A DNA stretch of 26,207 bases. Origin: a virus. The number at the start of each line of letters is the position of its first letter. Within the stretch, counting starts at the first letter, position 1. The stretch lies in IMG/VR virus record IMGVR_UViG_3300031999_004188, positions 1-26,207 of that record; one strand, written 5' to 3'. The notes beneath the pieces are model-generated. The model saw only the letters and a program-made list of their open reading frames with translations, ran no database searches and was not told the origin of the DNA. The position numbers and the translations under genes are program-made. Positions 65 through 9,290 of this stretch are shown one piece after another.

Positions 65-71
65 AAAGCTG

Positions 72-101
72 TTGCATCGAAGGTTCGGGGCATGGTATAA
101 T
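72..101 (+). promoter_or_regulatory. Extended -10 sigma70-type promoter candidate
   Basis: A perfect TATAAT lies at 96-101, with TG at 93-94 one base upstream of it, which makes an extended -10 element. A weak -35 match (TTGCAT, 72-77) is 18 nt away. Transcription would start near 108, just after the endonuclease stop and at the head of the 490-nt gene-free, helix-rich stretch. This is a sequence match only. Confidence 0.55.
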
Positions 102-107
102 ACTTAT

Positions 108-600
108 TAACAGGACAGTTCTCCTTCAATTCCCCTTGTCGGCGACTCAGACAGCTCGTCTCATGAGGAGTCCCCGCATAGGATATTGCAGCGGAATAGA
201 GAAATCGCCAATCTAACAGATTGACGATACCAAAAAAAGAGCTAACGAGAATAGGGTAAAACATCGTATGCTATAAACTCATTAGCTTCTTTTCTAAAAT
301 GTTGTTCGCCATCAGGCGAATAACATCACCCCGACATTTTAGAAAAGAATAATAACCCTGCCACATCTTCCGAAGTAGCGTTTATTACTGTTCAAGCTGC
401 CGTTAAAAGCCGCTGGGTGGTGGTTGATGCTTTTCGGTGGAGCTGGAAGTGTTTTTATAACATTTTAAGTGTAGAGCTATTAGCCTGCGATATACTGTCT
501 CGCTGCGGTGAGGCGGCATCGTAGTTTTCATATTAGTTTTTGCCTATGAGAGAACGCTCGTTCTCTCCTCGTTCTCTCGCAGGCTAATCGCTTTTACGCC
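108..600 (+). ncRNA. Candidate large structured RNA or long structured leader
   Basis: This stretch has no convincing gene and holds a chain of helices. They are: 144-148 with 168-172 enclosing the hairpin 149-152/158-161; CCGC 174-177 with GCGG 191-194; 204-214 with 218-228 (10 of 11 pairs, 3-nt loop); 240-249 with 278-287 (9 of 10); 287-300 with 336-349 (14 of 14) enclosing 301-310/315-324; 350-355 with 382-387; 395-410 with 429-444 (AGCT, CCG and AAAAGC segments); and 479-490 with 577-588 (12 of 12) enclosing 548-555/560-567. A promoter-like site precedes it. No intrinsic terminator is seen before the next gene, so it may be a separate RNA or the 5' leader of the small-gene and terminase operon. 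Size and phage context recall GOLLD and ROOL RNAs, but no homology is claimed. Confidence 0.55.
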
Positions 601-762
601 ATGCAAAAAAAGTGTCTCAAGTGTAAAAGTAAATTAGAAGCAATTCCCAACGATAAGGCTTTTATGCTTTGTCGTTCTTGCGGGCGGGTGCAATCAAAAA
701 CTTATTCCACGCTTCCGAAGGAAGTTGAGCTTGTCATTGAAGACAAGCTTTTTAGTAAATAA
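601..762 (+). CDS. Small zinc-ribbon protein
   Basis: This 53-residue gene starts at ATG 601 and ends at TAA 762. It begins MQKKCLKCKSK and carries two Cys pairs, C5-x2-C8 and C24-x2-C27 (LCRSCGR), the layout of a single zinc ribbon. The C-terminal half is charged (PKEVELVIEDKLF). Small ribbons of this type in phages are usually of unknown function, sometimes nucleic-acid or protein binding. The start lies 12 nt after the end of the long stem 479-588, so that helix could influence its translation. It is the first gene after the candidate structured RNA and probably shares a transcript with the genes that follow. Confidence 0.6.
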   Translation: MQKKCLKCKSKLEAIPNDKAFMLCRSCGRVQSKTYSTLPKEVELVIEDKLFSK

Positions 763-2957: not shown

Positions 2958-4898
2958 ATGCCAACAAAAAAAGCGAAGAAAGAGGAAATACTGATAAATC
3001 CGTTTCCAGATTATACGCCAGAAGAGGCTGCATATCGCTCGGAGCTGATTAGAAAACTGACCACCGCTCAGGTTGCCAGAGATTCTAATTATCGGGAGTT
3101 TAATGATACTAATTATACTCAGTATTATGATAGCAACCTTAGAGCTGCGAATTCGTATATTGAGCCAAAACGTAATCCAGAGGACACACGTGTTGTGACG
3201 GGAACGACGGAAGAAAAGGGCAGCACGCTGCTTTCGGCGATTCTAAACTACAATCTTGAGCCAAACATCATGGCGTTCGACAAGGAGATGATGGAAATTG
3301 ACGAACTGGGAAAAAATATTGAAGACTTGGTAAAAAAATCACGTGAGATAGAGAATTATGAAGAAAAAAGAGTTTTAATATACAAGGAGATGCTCGACCA
3401 GGGAACTTGCTTCGTCGAGGAGCAGTGGGTTGAGGAAACGAAGGTTGTAAAAAAATTAAAGGATGTTAATTGGAGCGACGGCGTTAAAGTAAAGAGTATT
3501 AAATGGGACGAGACTGATGCGGAAGGATTTTGCGGTTGTCAGACACGGCTTATTCGAGGCGACAAAGTTTATCTCGGCGACATGCGTGATTTTCAGCTTT
3601 CTAAACAGCCATATATTTTTACGCTCGACAAAATGAGTTATGCCGAGGCGGAAACTATTTATAAAAATTGGGACAGGTGGGAGTTCGTTCCGAAAAAAAT
3701 TGTCAGAGTTGTACCGACCGATTACTCCACTTATCGTGATTGGACGCTGGAGGCAGTGCAGGAAAACTTTGTCGAGGTGATTAAGTTTCAAAACAAATGG
3801 ACGAACGAGTTTATGATAATGCTGAATGGTGTGATGATGTTGCCGGTTGGGTTTCCGCTGGAAGCCATTTCACCATCGGGGGATTATACGATTGCCAAAG
3901 GGGATGTTTATCCAATGTCACAATTTTTTGCCTACTCCAAGTCTATTCCGGCTAAAACTAAAGTTGACCAGGCTGTTCTGGACGAAATGATGAAACTGAT
4001 TGTTTTAAAGACACGGAAATCTTATATGCCGCCGATGGCTAATAACACGGGGCGCGTTTTGTCGAGAAAAATATTTAATGCTGGTGAAATTACGAATCAG
4101 ATTGACCCTGCCAAACTGCAACCGATAGGAGACGCTACTGGCGTAACCGCATCAGAATTCAATGCGTTTGAATTTATAAAAGGAATCGTTGACCAAAAAT
4201 CCGTGTCCCCCGCTTTTGCTGGCGACCAAACATCTGGCACGCAGACAGCAACAGAAATATTGGAACTCAAAAAACAGCAAATGATGAAGTTGGGCTTGGT
4301 TATTTACGGAATTATTTCTTTGGAGAAGCAGTTGTCCTGGTTGCGGACTTACAACATTTTAACTAATTGGACGAAGAAGCAGGACACCCGTGTTAATGAG
4401 TTTACTGGTCAGCTAGAAGAGGTCTTTAAGACGATTGAAGTCGAGTCTAATTTTGAAGAAGGGCAGAAAGGAAAAAAGATTATTCAGTTTTCTCCCGAAG
4501 CTGGAGAATATACGCCTGAACAAATAATGCAGGAAGAGAGCATGTTGTCTGAGCAGAAGCGGATGCCAGTGCGAAAGACATATATCAGCCCAGAAATTGC
4601 GAAGATGAAAAACTTTTATTATATTAATATTACACCCGTCGAAAAGGAAACATCTGATTTACAAAAAATCATGTTTAAGACTGACGTTCAGGACGCAATG
4701 AATTTATTTGGTGCGCAATCACTTAATTTTCCGTACCTGATGAAGCGATATGCGGTCTTGTCTAGACAGAATCCTGAAAAATTCTTTATTCCTAACGCCC
4801 CTGTTACTCCATCTGAACAAGCGATGAAGGGTGGTGATAATAACGGATTGGGAGCGCAACTGAATAGAGGGATTGGAACTTCGATGATGGGAGGATAA
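2958..4898 (+). CDS. Portal protein
   Basis: The 646-residue product follows the large terminase, where tailed phages carry the portal, the dodecameric ring at one capsid vertex through which DNA enters and leaves. The sequence has the mixed alpha/beta pattern of large portals: a helical N-terminus with charged repeats (residues 15-60), a wing-like segment with the CxFVEEQWVEE stretch at about 150-161, and a helical stem and crown region (about 410-480, TATEILELKKQQMMKLG). The C-terminal tail is Gly/Asn rich (GGDNNGLGAQ). The large size resembles portals of short-tailed phages of the P22 type. No catalytic motif is expected. Recognition rests on length, position and general pattern. Confidence 0.85.
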   Translation: MPTKKAKKEEILINPFPDYTPEEAAYRSELIRKLTTAQVARDSNYREFNDTNYTQYYDSNLRAANSYIEPKRNPEDTRVVTGTTEEKGSTLLSAILNYNLEPNIMAFDKEMMEIDELGKNIEDLVKKSREIENYEEKRVLIYKEMLDQGTCFVEEQWVEETKVVKKLKDVNWSDGVKVKSIKWDETDAEGFCGCQTRLIRGDKVYLGDMRDFQLSKQPYIFTLDKMSYAEAETIYKNWDRWEFVPKKIVRVVPTDYSTYRDWTLEAVQENFVEVIKFQNKWTNEFMIMLNGVMMLPVGFPLEAISPSGDYTIAKGDVYPMSQFFAYSKSIPAKTKVDQAVLDEMMKLIVLKTRKSYMPPMANNTGRVLSRKIFNAGEITNQIDPAKLQPIGDATGVTASEFNAFEFIKGIVDQKSVSPAFAGDQTSGTQTATEILELKKQQMMKLGLVIYGIISLEKQLSWLRTYNILTNWTKKQDTRVNEFTGQLEEVFKTIEVESNFEEGQKGKKIIQFSPEAGEYTPEQIMQEESMLSEQKRMPVRKTYISPEIAKMKNFYYINITPVEKETSDLQKIMFKTDVQDAMNLFGAQSLNFPYLMKRYAVLSRQNPEKFFIPNAPVTPSEQAMKGGDNNGLGAQLNRGIGTSMMGG

Positions 4899-5252: not shown

Positions 5253-5810
5253 ATGGCTTTTGAAGCTTTCAACGCTGACGGAGAACCAATCTCAGGAATT
5301 CTTCCGCCAGAAGAAATTAAAAATCTTCAGGCGACGCTTGAGGAGACAAACAAAAAACTTTCCAAGCTGGAGAACAAGGAATTTAATTTTCGGAAACTCG
5401 AAAACATGACGGAGGAGCAAAGAGCAAAGCTTACGGACACCGAGCTTTCGTTGAAGAGGCAACAGGAAGAGTTGGAAGAAAAGCAAAAGTCTTTTGAAGG
5501 AGCGTTTGTTTCCGATGTCAAGGGAGACTTGTTGGCGTCACTTGTCGGCGACGACGAAGAGCTTCGGAAAAAGGTTGAACTAAATTATTCGAGAATTAAA
5601 GATTCGGATAAAGCAAAAAGCCGTGCGGAAATAAAAACTTTAATTAACGATGCTTACGCCATGTCGGTTGGGATAAAGCATCGTAACCCTATTTTTAACG
5701 CCAACAATACTTCTGGTTCTCAATCAGCCAAGACTGTAAAACCAAGTGATGACCTGCTGGAACTCGGAAAAAAATTCGGCTTGAGCGAAGAAGACTTAAA
5801 AAAGGTTTAA
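5253..5810 (+). CDS. Putative capsid scaffolding protein
   Basis: The 185-residue protein is acidic and highly helical. Residues 18-90 form a long coiled coil (LQATLEETNKKLSKLENK and onward), and the C-terminus is a short basic and acidic helix (DLLELGKKFGLSEEDLKKV). This matches phage scaffolds, which line the inside of the procapsid, direct assembly of the major capsid protein through a C-terminal helix, and leave before packaging. The PIFNANNTSGSQSAKT stretch at about 149-164 looks like a flexible linker. Position between portal and major capsid genes supports the call. The start uses an A-rich leader. The function is inferred; no homology search was possible. Confidence 0.75.
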   Translation: MAFEAFNADGEPISGILPPEEIKNLQATLEETNKKLSKLENKEFNFRKLENMTEEQRAKLTDTELSLKRQQEELEEKQKSFEGAFVSDVKGDLLASLVGDDEELRKKVELNYSRIKDSDKAKSRAEIKTLINDAYAMSVGIKHRNPIFNANNTSGSQSAKTVKPSDDLLELGKKFGLSEEDLKKV

Positions 5811-6281: not shown

Positions 6282-6665
6282 ATGTTTATCGGAACAAAAG
6301 AGATTAAGATTACGCTTGACAAGGATGAAAAAAATCTTTCTGTCGAGTTCGTCGATGACAATAATTCAGTTGTAATTAATAAAGAGTTGTTTGACTTAAT
6401 CAAGTCGGAAACAAAGGGTACTGGCAATGTTACCGACAATATCAACGACCTTTTCGCTCGCAAGTTCTTGGCAGAACTGGCTTATTATGACCTGGGTTTC
6501 TATTTTTGTCGTAACATTGCCAATTCGATAGAGGTCTTAGCTCATAATTTGCGGGAAGAGTTATTAAGAAGCACATTTAACTGCTCTGGCGGGGATGACA
6601 TTAACCTTAGACTCTTGACAAAAATCAAAACATCATCTTCCCCAATTGAAGATAAGGTGGTATAA
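6282..6665 (+). CDS. Unknown head-region protein
   Basis: The 127-residue protein opens with beta-like strands (KEIKITLDKDEKNLSVEFVDD) and ends with a helical half (LFARKFLAELAYYDLGFYF, SIEVLAHNLREELLR). The 5-35 segment could be a small beta domain. No motif or family is recognised. Its TAA stop shares a base with the ATG of the next short frame (TAATG), so the two would be translationally coupled. Confidence 0.65.
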   Translation: MFIGTKEIKITLDKDEKNLSVEFVDDNNSVVINKELFDLIKSETKGTGNVTDNINDLFARKFLAELAYYDLGFYFCRNIANSIEVLAHNLREELLRSTFNCSGGDDINLRLLTKIKTSSSPIEDKVV

Positions 6666-6769
6666 TGATTATAGTGCCTTTTTTAGACATAGGTTTTCAA
6701 TATTCGGCTAATCTGGCAACAGGTTGGTCGGAATCGACAACTTATCCGATGGAGCAATACCAGCGTTAA
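6665..6769 (+). CDS. Short coupled frame, 34 residues
   Basis: ATG 6665 overlaps the preceding stop by one base in TAATG, an arrangement that favours re-initiation by terminating ribosomes. The product starts MIIVPFLDIGFQYSANLA and ends PMEQYQR. It is too short to place in a family. It is the last frame before the terminator at 6808-6840. Chance is possible; the tight coupling is the only support. Confidence 0.35.
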   Translation: MIIVPFLDIGFQYSANLATGWSESTTYPMEQYQR

Positions 6770-6807: not shown

Positions 6808-6840
6808 AACACGAATATTACACAAATATCGTGTTTTTTT
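6808..6840 (+). terminator. Intrinsic terminator after the scaffold block
   Basis: AACACGA (6808-6814) pairs with TCGTGTT (6829-6835), extended inward by TATT with AATA around one bulged A, and is followed without a gap by a run of T to 6840. This is the clearest Rho-independent terminator in the window. A smaller stem CGCAG/CTGCG (6788-6792 with 6798-6802) lies just upstream. It separates the packaging and scaffold genes from the decoration and capsid genes, so the latter probably need read-through or their own promoter. Confidence 0.75.
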
Positions 6841-6880
6841 GTGTAATAGGGCTTATTTATTAGTTTTAAAACTTACTTAT

Positions 6881-7327
6881 ATGGCGTTTATTCGCAAAGA
6901 AGGAAAGACAAAAATAATGTATCTTCCTGTTGCTGCCTCTGCTGGAGCGGTAACAAACGGTGCATTAATGGCTTATTCTAGCGGAGTTTTGATTCCTGCT
7001 ACAAATACTGCCAATAACTACGATATGGTTGGTGTAATCAGAAAGGCAATCACAACGGCTGATTCCGATTATGCAGTTGCTCGCTTAGTTCCGATTGAAG
7101 TACCTGTGGAAAAGAATGTTATTTGGGAAGCCCCAGTCAACGTTGGAACTTTAGCCACTACTTCCGTTGGTCTTTATTTTGACCTAGACACAGCCGATAC
7201 TGGCATTGGAGTTGACCAAAGTGCGTCAACCATGGATATTGTGCAATGCGTCAAATATATCAGTACAACTAAGGGTCATTTTATCTTGAATGTTGGCACT
7301 GACGCCAGATTAAAGGCAAATTCTTAA
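6881..7327 (+). CDS. Putative capsid decoration (head-stabilising) protein
   Basis: The ATG at 6881 follows an AT-rich leader; a longer frame from 6839 runs into the terminator T-run and is not used. The 148-residue product is rich in Ala, Thr and Val with short beta strands (IMYLPVAASAGAVTNGALMA, ARLVPIEVPVEKNVIWEA) and ends KGHFILNVGTDARLKANS. The size, beta-strand composition and position immediately before the major capsid gene resemble decoration proteins that bind the capsid surface in phages such as lambda. The call rests on context and composition. Confidence 0.6.
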   Translation: MAFIRKEGKTKIMYLPVAASAGAVTNGALMAYSSGVLIPATNTANNYDMVGVIRKAITTADSDYAVARLVPIEVPVEKNVIWEAPVNVGTLATTSVGLYFDLDTADTGIGVDQSASTMDIVQCVKYISTTKGHFILNVGTDARLKANS

Positions 7328-7396: not shown

Positions 7397-7555
7397 ATAA
7401 TTTACAATTATGTAATAATAACTAATGGTATATTAATAGTTATGATTTATGCAAAAAGAGGAACGGGGAAGAGTACTTTGAAATGTAGAACATGTGGAAT
7501 AGTAAAATCATACCAGTTAACATACCATTAGTATTATTAAGTAATTACTAATTAT
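7397..7555. repeat. Long imperfect inverted repeat (hairpin element) at the capsid gene 5' end
   Basis: The arm 7397-7447 is complementary to 7506-7555 over about 50 nt with roughly four of five bases pairing, including the perfect core CTAATGGTAT (7422-7431) with ATACCATTAG. The 58-nt loop reads KRGTGKSTLKCRTCGIVKS in the frame from ATG 7385, a zinc-ribbon-like CxxC scrap, before in-frame stops TAG 7529 and TAA 7538. The gene-free interval between the decoration stop (7327) and the capsid frame (7541) is otherwise AT-rich. The element could be a small mobile insertion, a regulatory hairpin or the remnant of a nuclease gene. Confidence 0.65.
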
Positions 7556-7787
7556 ATCGAACTTAATACAGTTAGTCTGAATGACTTCGTAAAACTTGCG
7601 TCCGTCATTTGGTTAAAGGCTTATGCCAGTGTCGCACAGGTTATGCGTGGTTCTGGCTTGGTAAAGGAATATCCGATACCACAAAACAGCGGCAACACTC
7701 GTGAATTTAGCGAAATAGATTCCGAAGAGTATGCTAAGGCTAAGGGCGAAGGCTCTCAAGCCGAAAGAGCAAAAGTTCAGCAAGGAT
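7541..7787 (+). CDS. Major capsid protein, 5' exon
   Basis: The frame is open from 7541 and reads NTVSLNDFVKLASVIWLK and onward (N at 7565), then a helical and acidic arm (EFSEIDSEEYAKAKGEG), and ends at the first base of a Tyr codon at 7787, where the group I intron begins. HK97-fold capsid proteins have just such an N-terminal arm. No ATG, GTG or TTG occurs in frame between the stop at 7538-7540 and ATG 7643, although the residues before 7643 look coding. Possible starts are a non-standard ATC at 7556 after an AT-rich leader, or ATG 7385 (MAVN) if the hairpin element interrupts the gene. A late start at 7643 would lose the arm. With the second exon the protein would be about 335 residues, normal for the family. 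Confidence 0.8.
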
Positions 7788-7989
7788 TGACAAGTGCTAT
7801 AGTCCTTATAAAATCTTTTCTAATCTACGGCGAAAACCCAGCAGTGGACAACGCCTTGCAAGCAGCGTAAGCGTGCAGCAACAACGACTAACCGAAAAGA
7901 CCGCCGAAAGTCGGCGGATGTAATAGTCTGAACACCAGCCATAACAAGAAGAAACTGGTGAATGAGACTCGAAGTAGTCTCATCGTTCC

Positions 7990-8451
7990 TTACAAATTTG
8001 ACTTAGTGATTAACGGCATCGTTCCCTTTCTAAATTTCTGATGATAACGCTGATGTTCTGACTCGGACGGAAATAAATAAAGATTTTCTATCCGATTGTC
8101 GTCCTTAATTTCGTTGATATGGTGGATTGCATTTTCTTTAGAAAGATAACGACCAAGATGCTTTTCTACGACAAGGACTTGCTCAGGAACATAGTTTTTG
8201 CAATTAGTCCGAGGGTGACCCTTTAAAAGGATGTGTATATATCCTTGGGTAGTTCTGGACTTTCCCCCTTTATAAAGATGACAATGGATTCCTGAACGAC
8301 CGCAGAACTTCCTTCTTGGGATGCTGAACCTAACCAAAGCACGATGTATTATTGATTGATTTATGTCACATAATTTAGCAATTTCTCGCTGACTTAAATC
8401 TTTATCAACATACATCGTATAGAGCCAATCACGATTTTTATATAATTTCAT
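7990..8451 (-). CDS. HNH homing endonuclease, antisense within the intron
   Basis: The start is taken as the internal Met at 8449-8451 (MKLYKNRDW), giving 153 residues; an upstream Met at 8530-8532 would extend into the capsid exon. Residues about 8-48 form a helix-turn-helix (DLSQREIAKLCDINQSIIHRA) likely to bind the target. Residues about 95-140 are an HNH_3-type nuclease domain: VEKHLGRYL, then AIHHINEIKDDNRIENLYL with the His pair, the Asp-Asn and the ENL signature. Such enzymes cut intron-free alleles of the host gene so that the intron is copied in. The gene runs opposite to the capsid gene, which is unusual for phage introns. A promoter-like site (8459-8487) places the mRNA start next to the ATG. 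Confidence 0.88.
   Translation of the reverse strand: MKLYKNRDWLYTMYVDKDLSQREIAKLCDINQSIIHRALVRFSIPRRKFCGRSGIHCHLYKGGKSRTTQGYIHILLKGHPRTNCKNYVPEQVLVVEKHLGRYLSKENAIHHINEIKDDNRIENLYLFPSESEHQRYHQKFRKGTMPLITKSNL
7992..8001 (+). repeat. Direct repeat, left copy, flanking the endonuclease cassette
   Basis: The 10-mer ACAAATTTGA occurs here and again at 8506-8515, where it spans the intron 3' end. The two copies bracket the whole endonuclease gene and its promoter, and the endonuclease stop codon touches this copy. Confidence 0.7.
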
Positions 8452-8472
8452 AGTGTTAATTCTAACACTATG
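8449..8472. repeat. Perfect inverted repeat over the endonuclease start codon
   Basis: CATAGTGTTA (8449-8458) and TAACACTATG (8463-8472) are perfect complements with a 4-nt spacer. The repeat contains the endonuclease start codon and part of its predicted -10 element, so it could be an operator-like site. A transcript starting further upstream than 8472 would hide the start codon in the stem. On the sense strand it may form a peripheral helix near the intron 3' end. Confidence 0.7.
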
Positions 8473-8487
8473 ACATAAAATAGTCAA
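8459..8487 (-). promoter_or_regulatory. Promoter for the antisense endonuclease
   Basis: Read on the minus strand, TTGACT (8487-8482) and TAGAAT (8464-8459) are separated by 17 nt, each one base from the sigma70 consensus. The predicted start at about 8452 is one base before the endonuclease ATG (8451), so the mRNA would be leaderless. Confidence 0.55.
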
Positions 8488-8505
8488 ATTCAGTAAGAAA
8501 TAGTA

Positions 8506-8515
8506 ACAAATTTGA
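8506..8515 (+). repeat. Direct repeat, right copy, at the intron 3' splice site
   Basis: This is the second copy of ACAAATTTGA. Its G at 8514 is the last intron base and its final A is the first base of the second exon. If the segment between the copies were removed, a 213-nt intron (7788-8000 plus the same 3' end) would remain, close to a minimal group I core. Confidence 0.7.
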
Positions 8516-9290
8516 TAGCAAGACCATGACAATAAAACGTGTTGCTATGGACATCGGAATCACCTATGAAATGAGAACACAGAATAAATATCCTGAAGTT
8601 GTTGCTCGCTTGACTGGCAATGCCGCTCAAGCTGCACGCAGAATGGATTTAGATTTGTCTCATCGCTTAACCTTCGCAACAGCAACTACTTATACTGACA
8701 TGGATTCCAACACAATTGATATTGCAACTGGCGATACTCTTTGCTTGGCCTCCACTGGTCACTATTTGAAAGGCACAACTGCAACTTATCGCAACATTCT
8801 TGCTAATAACCCGAAGTTATCTAAGGGTGCGTTAGAGGGAATGGAGAGACTGGTTGCTGAAGAGACCTTAAACCAATTCGGCGAGAAGATGGTAATGGAA
8901 TTTGATATCCTCTGGACAACTGACGACCCGAACACCGTCAACACTGCCAAAGAATATCTGCAATCCACTGCCGACCTTACTGGCATGAATTCAAATGTTA
9001 TCAACGTTTATAAATCCAAGTATCGCCATGTCATTCTTCCTCGTGTCGCCACAACTGCGGCAGGAGCGGTAGATTCGACAAAGAGATATTATTGGGGTTT
9101 AGCGTCTTCGGCTAATTCTTCTCTTTATCTTGGCGTCGCTGAAGAGCCGAGATTGAAAAGTCCGTCTGAAGGAAATAACGGAGATGAATTTAGCACCGAC
9201 GATTGGCAATTTGGGGTCAGATGTGGTTACGGAATCTGCACAGTATCTGGTGTTTGGCTGAAACTTTCGAAGGGTGACGGAAGTGCCTGA
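8515..9290 (+). CDS. Major capsid protein, 3' exon
   Basis: This exon completes the Tyr codon begun at 7787 and continues SKTMTIKRVAMDIGITYEM, then a long helix-rich region (GMERLVAEETLNQFGEKMVM) and a beta-rich C-terminus ending WLKLSKGDGSA before TGA. The order (N-arm, spine helix, P-domain-like strands and axial domain) fits HK97-fold major capsid proteins, hundreds of copies of which form the icosahedral shell. ATG 8526 could be mistaken for an independent start, but the in-frame codons between 8515 and 8526 and the intron splice pairing make it an internal Met. No protease gene for capsid maturation is seen nearby. Confidence 0.88.

Follow-up and report, generated by a model that had tools for sequence, protein, structure and literature searches.

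Large structured RNAs encoded by phages are few, and their functions are mostly unknown. Among those described, the packaging RNA (pRNA) of phi29 and its counterparts, about 120-174 nt long, occur in phages without a TerS/TerL pair and exemplify a structured phage RNA encoded near packaging genes, while the lambdoid late-leader (6S) RNA, about 190 nt long in lambda and ending in a terminator, lies where the late transcript begins, ahead of the packaging genes. The GOLLD and ROOL RNAs are frequently, if not universally, located near tRNA islands. They are large, densely folded phage RNAs whose function is likewise unknown, and many GOLLD RNAs exceed 800 nt (PMC12286853). A further hallmark of both families is assembly into cages built of identical RNA copies (homo-oligomers). 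In phage HK022, the put RNA, with about 70 nt and two stem-loops, belongs to the early operons, where putL sits directly behind the early promoter, and acts in cis to make polymerase terminator-resistant at least 10 kb away without a dedicated protein factor (PMC9378689).

The locus considered here opens the window, by which we mean the whole viral record of 26,207 bases. From 5' to 3' it comprises a truncated small zinc-finger-like ORF, a promoter (72-101), about 490 nt without a gene, three small ORFs, a TerS-like gene, TerL, portal and virion genes; nearly all genes of the window, including the recognised late genes, are on the + strand. The ORF cut by the start of the window is complete (1389-1598, a small HNH-like zinc protein) in contig 3300031772_007738 (hereafter L002), which carries the same RNA at 96% identity and reaches 1.5 kb further upstream. 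The small ORFs start at 601, 776 and 1066, the first two being zinc-ribbon-like; the product of 601-762 (+ strand) has 53 aa, two CxxC motifs and a weak zinc ribbon match, and is identical in L002. A terminator-like hairpin (AGCTTGTC-ATTGAA-GACAAGCT, then TTTTAG) lies at 727-750, at the end of this ORF, with a sub-threshold Rfam match to DUF2815 RNA. Further along the + strand follow the TerS-like gene (1200-1598), which is assigned from its position before TerL and its homologues in relatives, Pfam and PHROG matches being absent; TerL (1615-2952; Pfam Terminase_6C, 3e-9; PHROG 2, 4e-30); and a portal-like protein of the head-tail adaptor family (2958-4898; PHROG 332, E 3.5e-5), whose identity is 97% with L002 and 43-76% with other relatives. 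Searches with TerL and portal retrieved L003 (TerL 77%), L007 (74%), L061/L078 (73%), L062, L020/L021, L070 and others, all of them metagenome contigs and some of them fragments, and a host look-up in genome collections found none. A TerS homologue is the first operon gene in L003, L007, L061 and L062.

The promoter combines a weak -35 (TTGCAT, 72-77), an 18-nt spacer and an extended -10, TGGTATAAT, at 93-101, with the -10 box at 96-101 and a predicted start near 108. TTGCAT, poor as it is, is the best -35 at the usual spacing, TGNTATAAT is expected by chance 1.4 times per window, and a consensus promoter scan did not include 72-101 among the promoters it listed. The extended -10 (TG-N-TATAAT) that a first-pass annotation of this DNA had pointed out is thus present as a chance-prone motif, and its weight is raised because it is identical in L002 and because extended -10 promoters also precede the leaders of L003 (TTGACA-17-TACAAT) and L007 (TTGACA-17-TATTAT), each with a TG just before the -10. 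On reading the sequences, L062 and L021 likewise present extended -10 promoters at the equivalent position. The sole other exact copy of TGGTATAAT in the window, at 6658-6666, is upstream of the ORF at 6839-7327 and could be a second virion-gene promoter.

The stretch at 108-600 is non-coding and folded as a + strand RNA. It begins directly behind the promoter, contains no ORF longer than 42 aa wholly inside it, and shows no intrinsic terminator at its end. When 105-620 was folded, the + strand reached a z of -7.69 against 100 dinucleotide shuffles, none of which was as good, and the reverse strand -3.69; a rerun on 108-600 gave -7.8 (20 G-U pairs) for the + strand and -3.9 (8 G-U pairs) for the reverse strand, and control stretches of equal length downstream (601-1093 and 1200-1692) ranged from -1.2 to +1.0. 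Since palindromic DNA would fold about equally on both strands, this bias favours an RNA transcribed from left to right, and the same bias, with more G-U pairs on the + strand, is seen in L002, L003 and L007. Every helix named in the first-pass annotation exists: that at 287-300/336-349 extends to a perfect 16-bp inverted repeat (287-302/334-349; 18 bp counting one G-U), that at 479-490/577-588 has 12 bp, and those at 204-214/218-228 and 240-249/278-287 have one mismatch each, the latter at 246. Folding predicts three domains on the + strand. The 5' domain (108-360) would consist of a long irregular hairpin (118-197), hairpins at 204-228 and 240-287 and a long hairpin at 288-348, with a possible closure at 111-114/357-360; the middle domain (361-465), of a long hairpin rich in G-U pairs (361-446) and a small one (447-465); and the 3' domain (469-599), which reaches a z of -5.6 when folded alone, of a closing helix (469-490/577-599) around hairpins at 497-514, 515-544 and 548-567, the closing helix ending 1 nt before the ATG at 601.

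Comparison with L002 lends this fold further weight. The two RNAs differ by eight substitutions, five of which fall in predicted pairs without breaking any of them: from the window to L002, A128-U187 and A145-U171 become G-U and A248-U279 becomes C-G in the 5' domain, whereas U498-G513 becomes U-A in the 3' domain. The change of A248-U279 alters both sides and accounts for two of the five paired substitutions, so that the covariation check suggested at the outset yields one compensatory change and no broken pair, within two near-identical copies. When the same eight changes were placed at random, all pairs stayed intact in 0.5% of 3000 trials (P = 0.005), a test that concerns one pair of closely related sequences on a predicted structure; a weaker test, which scored the folding energy after mutation, found 6% of 600 trials equally good. 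The middle domain is unchanged. L002 also lacks 1 nt at 275 and 11 nt at 557-567, the latter being an 11-nt repeat in a junction of the 3' domain, and because these deletions break any reading frame across the RNA they exclude a conserved protein there, thereby bearing out the earlier description of a 490-nt stretch without a gene. The collections searched contain just these two near-identical copies: a blastn search of the RNA against phages and plasmids gave no matches, and a 21-nt loop motif matched L002 only.

How this RNA compares with the described systems depends on which of their features is considered. It shares with GOLLD and ROOL its size and dense folding, and with pRNA its location near packaging genes, and kinship to these had been entertained at first; however, a search of all Rfam covariance models, GOLLD and ROOL included, matched no family in the window at the gathering threshold, nor any up to E 10 in 1-1200 beyond chance-level unrelated matches. 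The window holds no detectable tRNA, let alone a tRNA island, and the RNA runs into the mRNA, so that kinship to GOLLD or ROOL is not supported. Nor is kinship to pRNA: there is no Rfam pRNA match, the phage encodes both TerS and TerL, and the RNA is missing from relatives. A group I intron or HEARO-type reading, also considered, was dropped for want of Rfam support. The lambdoid late-leader RNA occupies a similar place on the transcript, but the window RNA has no terminator at its end. By position, the nearest described analogue is HK022 put, which, like the window RNA (predicted start at 108, -10 at 96-101), is structured and opens a phage operon immediately behind a promoter; the analogy does not extend to size, architecture or genes, put having about 70 nt and two stem-loops in early operons and the window RNA about 490 nt and three domains ahead of late genes.

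More distant relatives reveal that the same place can be occupied differently. In L003 the promoter is followed by about 260 nt of non-coding sequence (z -4.65) and then TerS, and in L007 by about 340 nt of structured RNA (z -6.05) and then TerS, so that both phages have structured leaders of 250-340 nt between an extended -10 promoter and the small terminase. After alignment by sequence alone (MAFFT), with a consensus structure derived from the same alignment, every consensus pair is kept, 24/24 in the 5' hairpins of the two (6 double changes) and 32/32 in the 3' domains (9 double changes); when the partner strand is shifted by 1-3 columns, pairing falls to 31-60%. Because the consensus came from that alignment, a structure-free control was added in which all antidiagonals were searched and compared with 2000 column shuffles: the 3' domain shows four runs of at least 6 conserved pairs, compared with 0.5 expected, and three runs of 7 pairs, of which the 2000 shuffles produced none. 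The three longest runs correspond to the outer helix (3 double changes), P2 (1) and P3 (2). The RNAs of L003 and L007 are thus homologues with strong covariation. P2 crosses P3, and each of them competes with the inner portion of a long nested helix, so that this RNA has either a pseudoknot or two conserved alternative folds, as in a switch, two alternatives between which two sequences cannot discriminate. Rfam searches up to E 10 gave nothing for either RNA beyond chance-level matches to unrelated families, and the pair thus represents a covariation-backed, possibly pseudoknotted RNA outside all Rfam families, to which the window RNA adds another of greater length in the same position; each of these RNA classes comprises two sequences.

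The window RNA could not be linked to that pair. Its local alignment to the L003 and L007 RNAs was no better than shuffles, and covariance models built from them did not match the window, where the best scores were 7.7 bits (R1, 5' hairpin) and 6.3 bits (R2, 3' domain). What they share is a gross plan, namely a long irregular hairpin followed by a branched domain closed by a helix of about 20 bp that ends shortly before the first start codon, a likeness that can be due to chance. In sum, the first-pass view of a promoter-led structured RNA beside the packaging genes holds, resting on the compensatory change in L002 and on the structured RNAs of L003 and L007 in the same slot, and of its two proposals, a new phage RNA class or a long regulatory leader, the leader is the best reading, whereas a class of its own finds no basis in two near-identical copies that do not match the L003/L007 models.

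In L061, L062 and L020/L021, on the other hand, the leader is absent, and the distance from the -10 box to the TerS ATG is about 11-16 nt, which would make their mRNAs leaderless or nearly so. Near-perfect palindromes of about 19-25 bp at L061 2445-2510 and L062 2388-2441 (z about -8 to -10 in 160-nt windows) were considered as counterparts of the leader and rejected, palindromic as they are and far from the late promoter. The occurrence of a structured RNA in some relatives and of nothing in others defines an optional slot between the late promoter and the first late gene. In the TerL and portal tree a possible clade of the window, L003 and L007 has a support of about 50, with which either one gain or several losses of the leader would be compatible. 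Having relatives with and without the RNA at one defined spot makes its function testable by swap or deletion in a reporter.

Taken together, these observations lead us to consider that the window RNA is probably a structured leader that acts in cis on the late operon, with its packaging and virion genes, cis action being suggested by its slot and by the absence of a terminator at its end. Host polymerase would start near 108 at the extended -10 promoter, as the motif and its conservation indicate, and the first 490 nt would fold co-transcriptionally, domain by domain, before the first gene, in agreement with the folding and pair conservation. While still being made, the RNA may then engage the elongating polymerase, by itself or together with a phage protein, and permit read-through of more than 25 kb of co-directional late genes. 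This last step, the mechanism that we favour most, is drawn by analogy with put and is offered tentatively, as a possibility on the doubtful side, given that put is far smaller (about 70 nt compared with about 490 nt); for the explanation as a whole, a compromise between the claim of a cis-acting leader and the put-like mechanism, our confidence is evenly balanced. The relatives with a TerL identity of 73% manage without any leader, which makes the leader accessory rather than essential in the clade, and an accessory RNA is hardly what a part of the packaging motor should be.

Among the alternatives, a free-standing non-coding RNA, cut or terminated off the mRNA and acting in trans in the manner of GOLLD, ROOL or the terminated lambdoid late-leader RNA, would accord with the size and helix density, with the terminator-like hairpin somewhat downstream (727-750) and with the pseudoknot-like RNA of L040 (1490-1620), which ends in a terminator-like hairpin at a promoter-like site. 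We deem it unlikely, since the RNA itself ends without a terminator, has no Rfam match and no tRNAs nearby, and the RNAs of L003 and L007 continue directly into the terminase gene. A leader that controls translation, its structure gating or positioning initiation at the first start codon, is likewise improbable, notwithstanding that the foot of the last helix beside the ATG at 601 would fit such control equally well. An SD-like core precedes just 4 of the 25 gene starts examined (one of these positions, 6882, not being a true start codon), and in a phage mostly without Shine-Dalgarno sequences it is worth noting that the last helix stops 1 nt short of the first AUG; the last conserved helix of L003 and L007 ends about 13-15 nt before the terminase start, which in L003 appears to be ATA rather than ATG. 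The distance from the last helix to the start codon nevertheless differs among the three phages, and the window RNA precedes a zinc-ribbon ORF instead of TerS. Distinctly more speculative, and in our opinion rather improbable, is the idea that an exchangeable slot for RNA belongs to the late promoters of this clade and is filled by a pseudoknotted or switching RNA family, too diverged for the window to align with L003 and L007, whose members by themselves would control polymerase or else position the ribosome on the start codon, Shine-Dalgarno sequences being hardly used in these phages. Returning to the preferred cis-acting leader, its nature as an RNA is challenged by the notion of a DNA element of the packaging system (a cos or pac site with inverted repeats), for which the location just upstream of the terminase genes and the small HNH-like zinc protein upstream in L002 (1389-1598) could speak; this is very unlikely, given that the stability is strand-specific with G-U pairs favouring the + strand, that changes from A-U to G-U and from G-U to A-U are tolerated, that the promoter points into the element, that relatives lack it, and that a G-rich element, more widely shared and located further upstream, makes a better candidate for the packaging site. 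Chance or low-information structure is hardly credible with a z of -7.7, a compensatory change and control regions near 0, even if the window RNA itself is backed by one comparison.

Several minor features of these genomes deserve mention. The G-rich element (like GGGGTGGGGGTGGG), a candidate packaging site or quadruplex, is found upstream of the late promoter/terminase region at L002 1254, L003 5235, L061 4083, L062 3118 and L070 3707, and GAATTCTAAAAAAAGGTC occurs just before a promoter in both L002 (about 1302) and L007 (about 5). The apparent ATA start of TerS in L003 (ATACCAAAAGAAG, within 5637-5670), where relatives have ATG, comes shortly after the structured leader. In L040, a distant relative, reading by eye suggests that the promoter-like site upstream of the terminase region (1490-1620) leads into an RNA in which two long helices cross, GGTGCGACGTT/AGCGTCGCACACC and one of about 20 bp around TTGGCTTGC, and then into the terminator-like hairpin. 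L010 bears at 3592-3850, without an ARAGORN or Rfam call and with a fold z of only -1.9, a tRNA-like RNA with a 7-bp acceptor (GGGATAG/CTATCCC) and D-arm-like and T-arm-like hairpins around an insert of about 150 nt.

Two further features concern the major capsid gene of the window. At 7787-8525 this gene is split by about 730 nt that are missing from the uninterrupted genes of L003 and L061; this insert matches no Rfam intron family, carries, on the opposite strand, a gene for an HNH endonuclease (Pfam HNH_3, 1.5e-8) and probably represents a mobile intron or an insertion of that sort. At 7413-7558, a 146-nt piece that contains long inverted repeats (arms of 28 and 24 nt) separates the expected capsid ATG (7410-7412) from the second codon, whereas the L003 gene continues there without a break; in its present form, the capsid ORF of the window has no ATG at that place, which raises the question of whether the piece is bypassed or spliced, or whether translation would begin at a non-AUG start.
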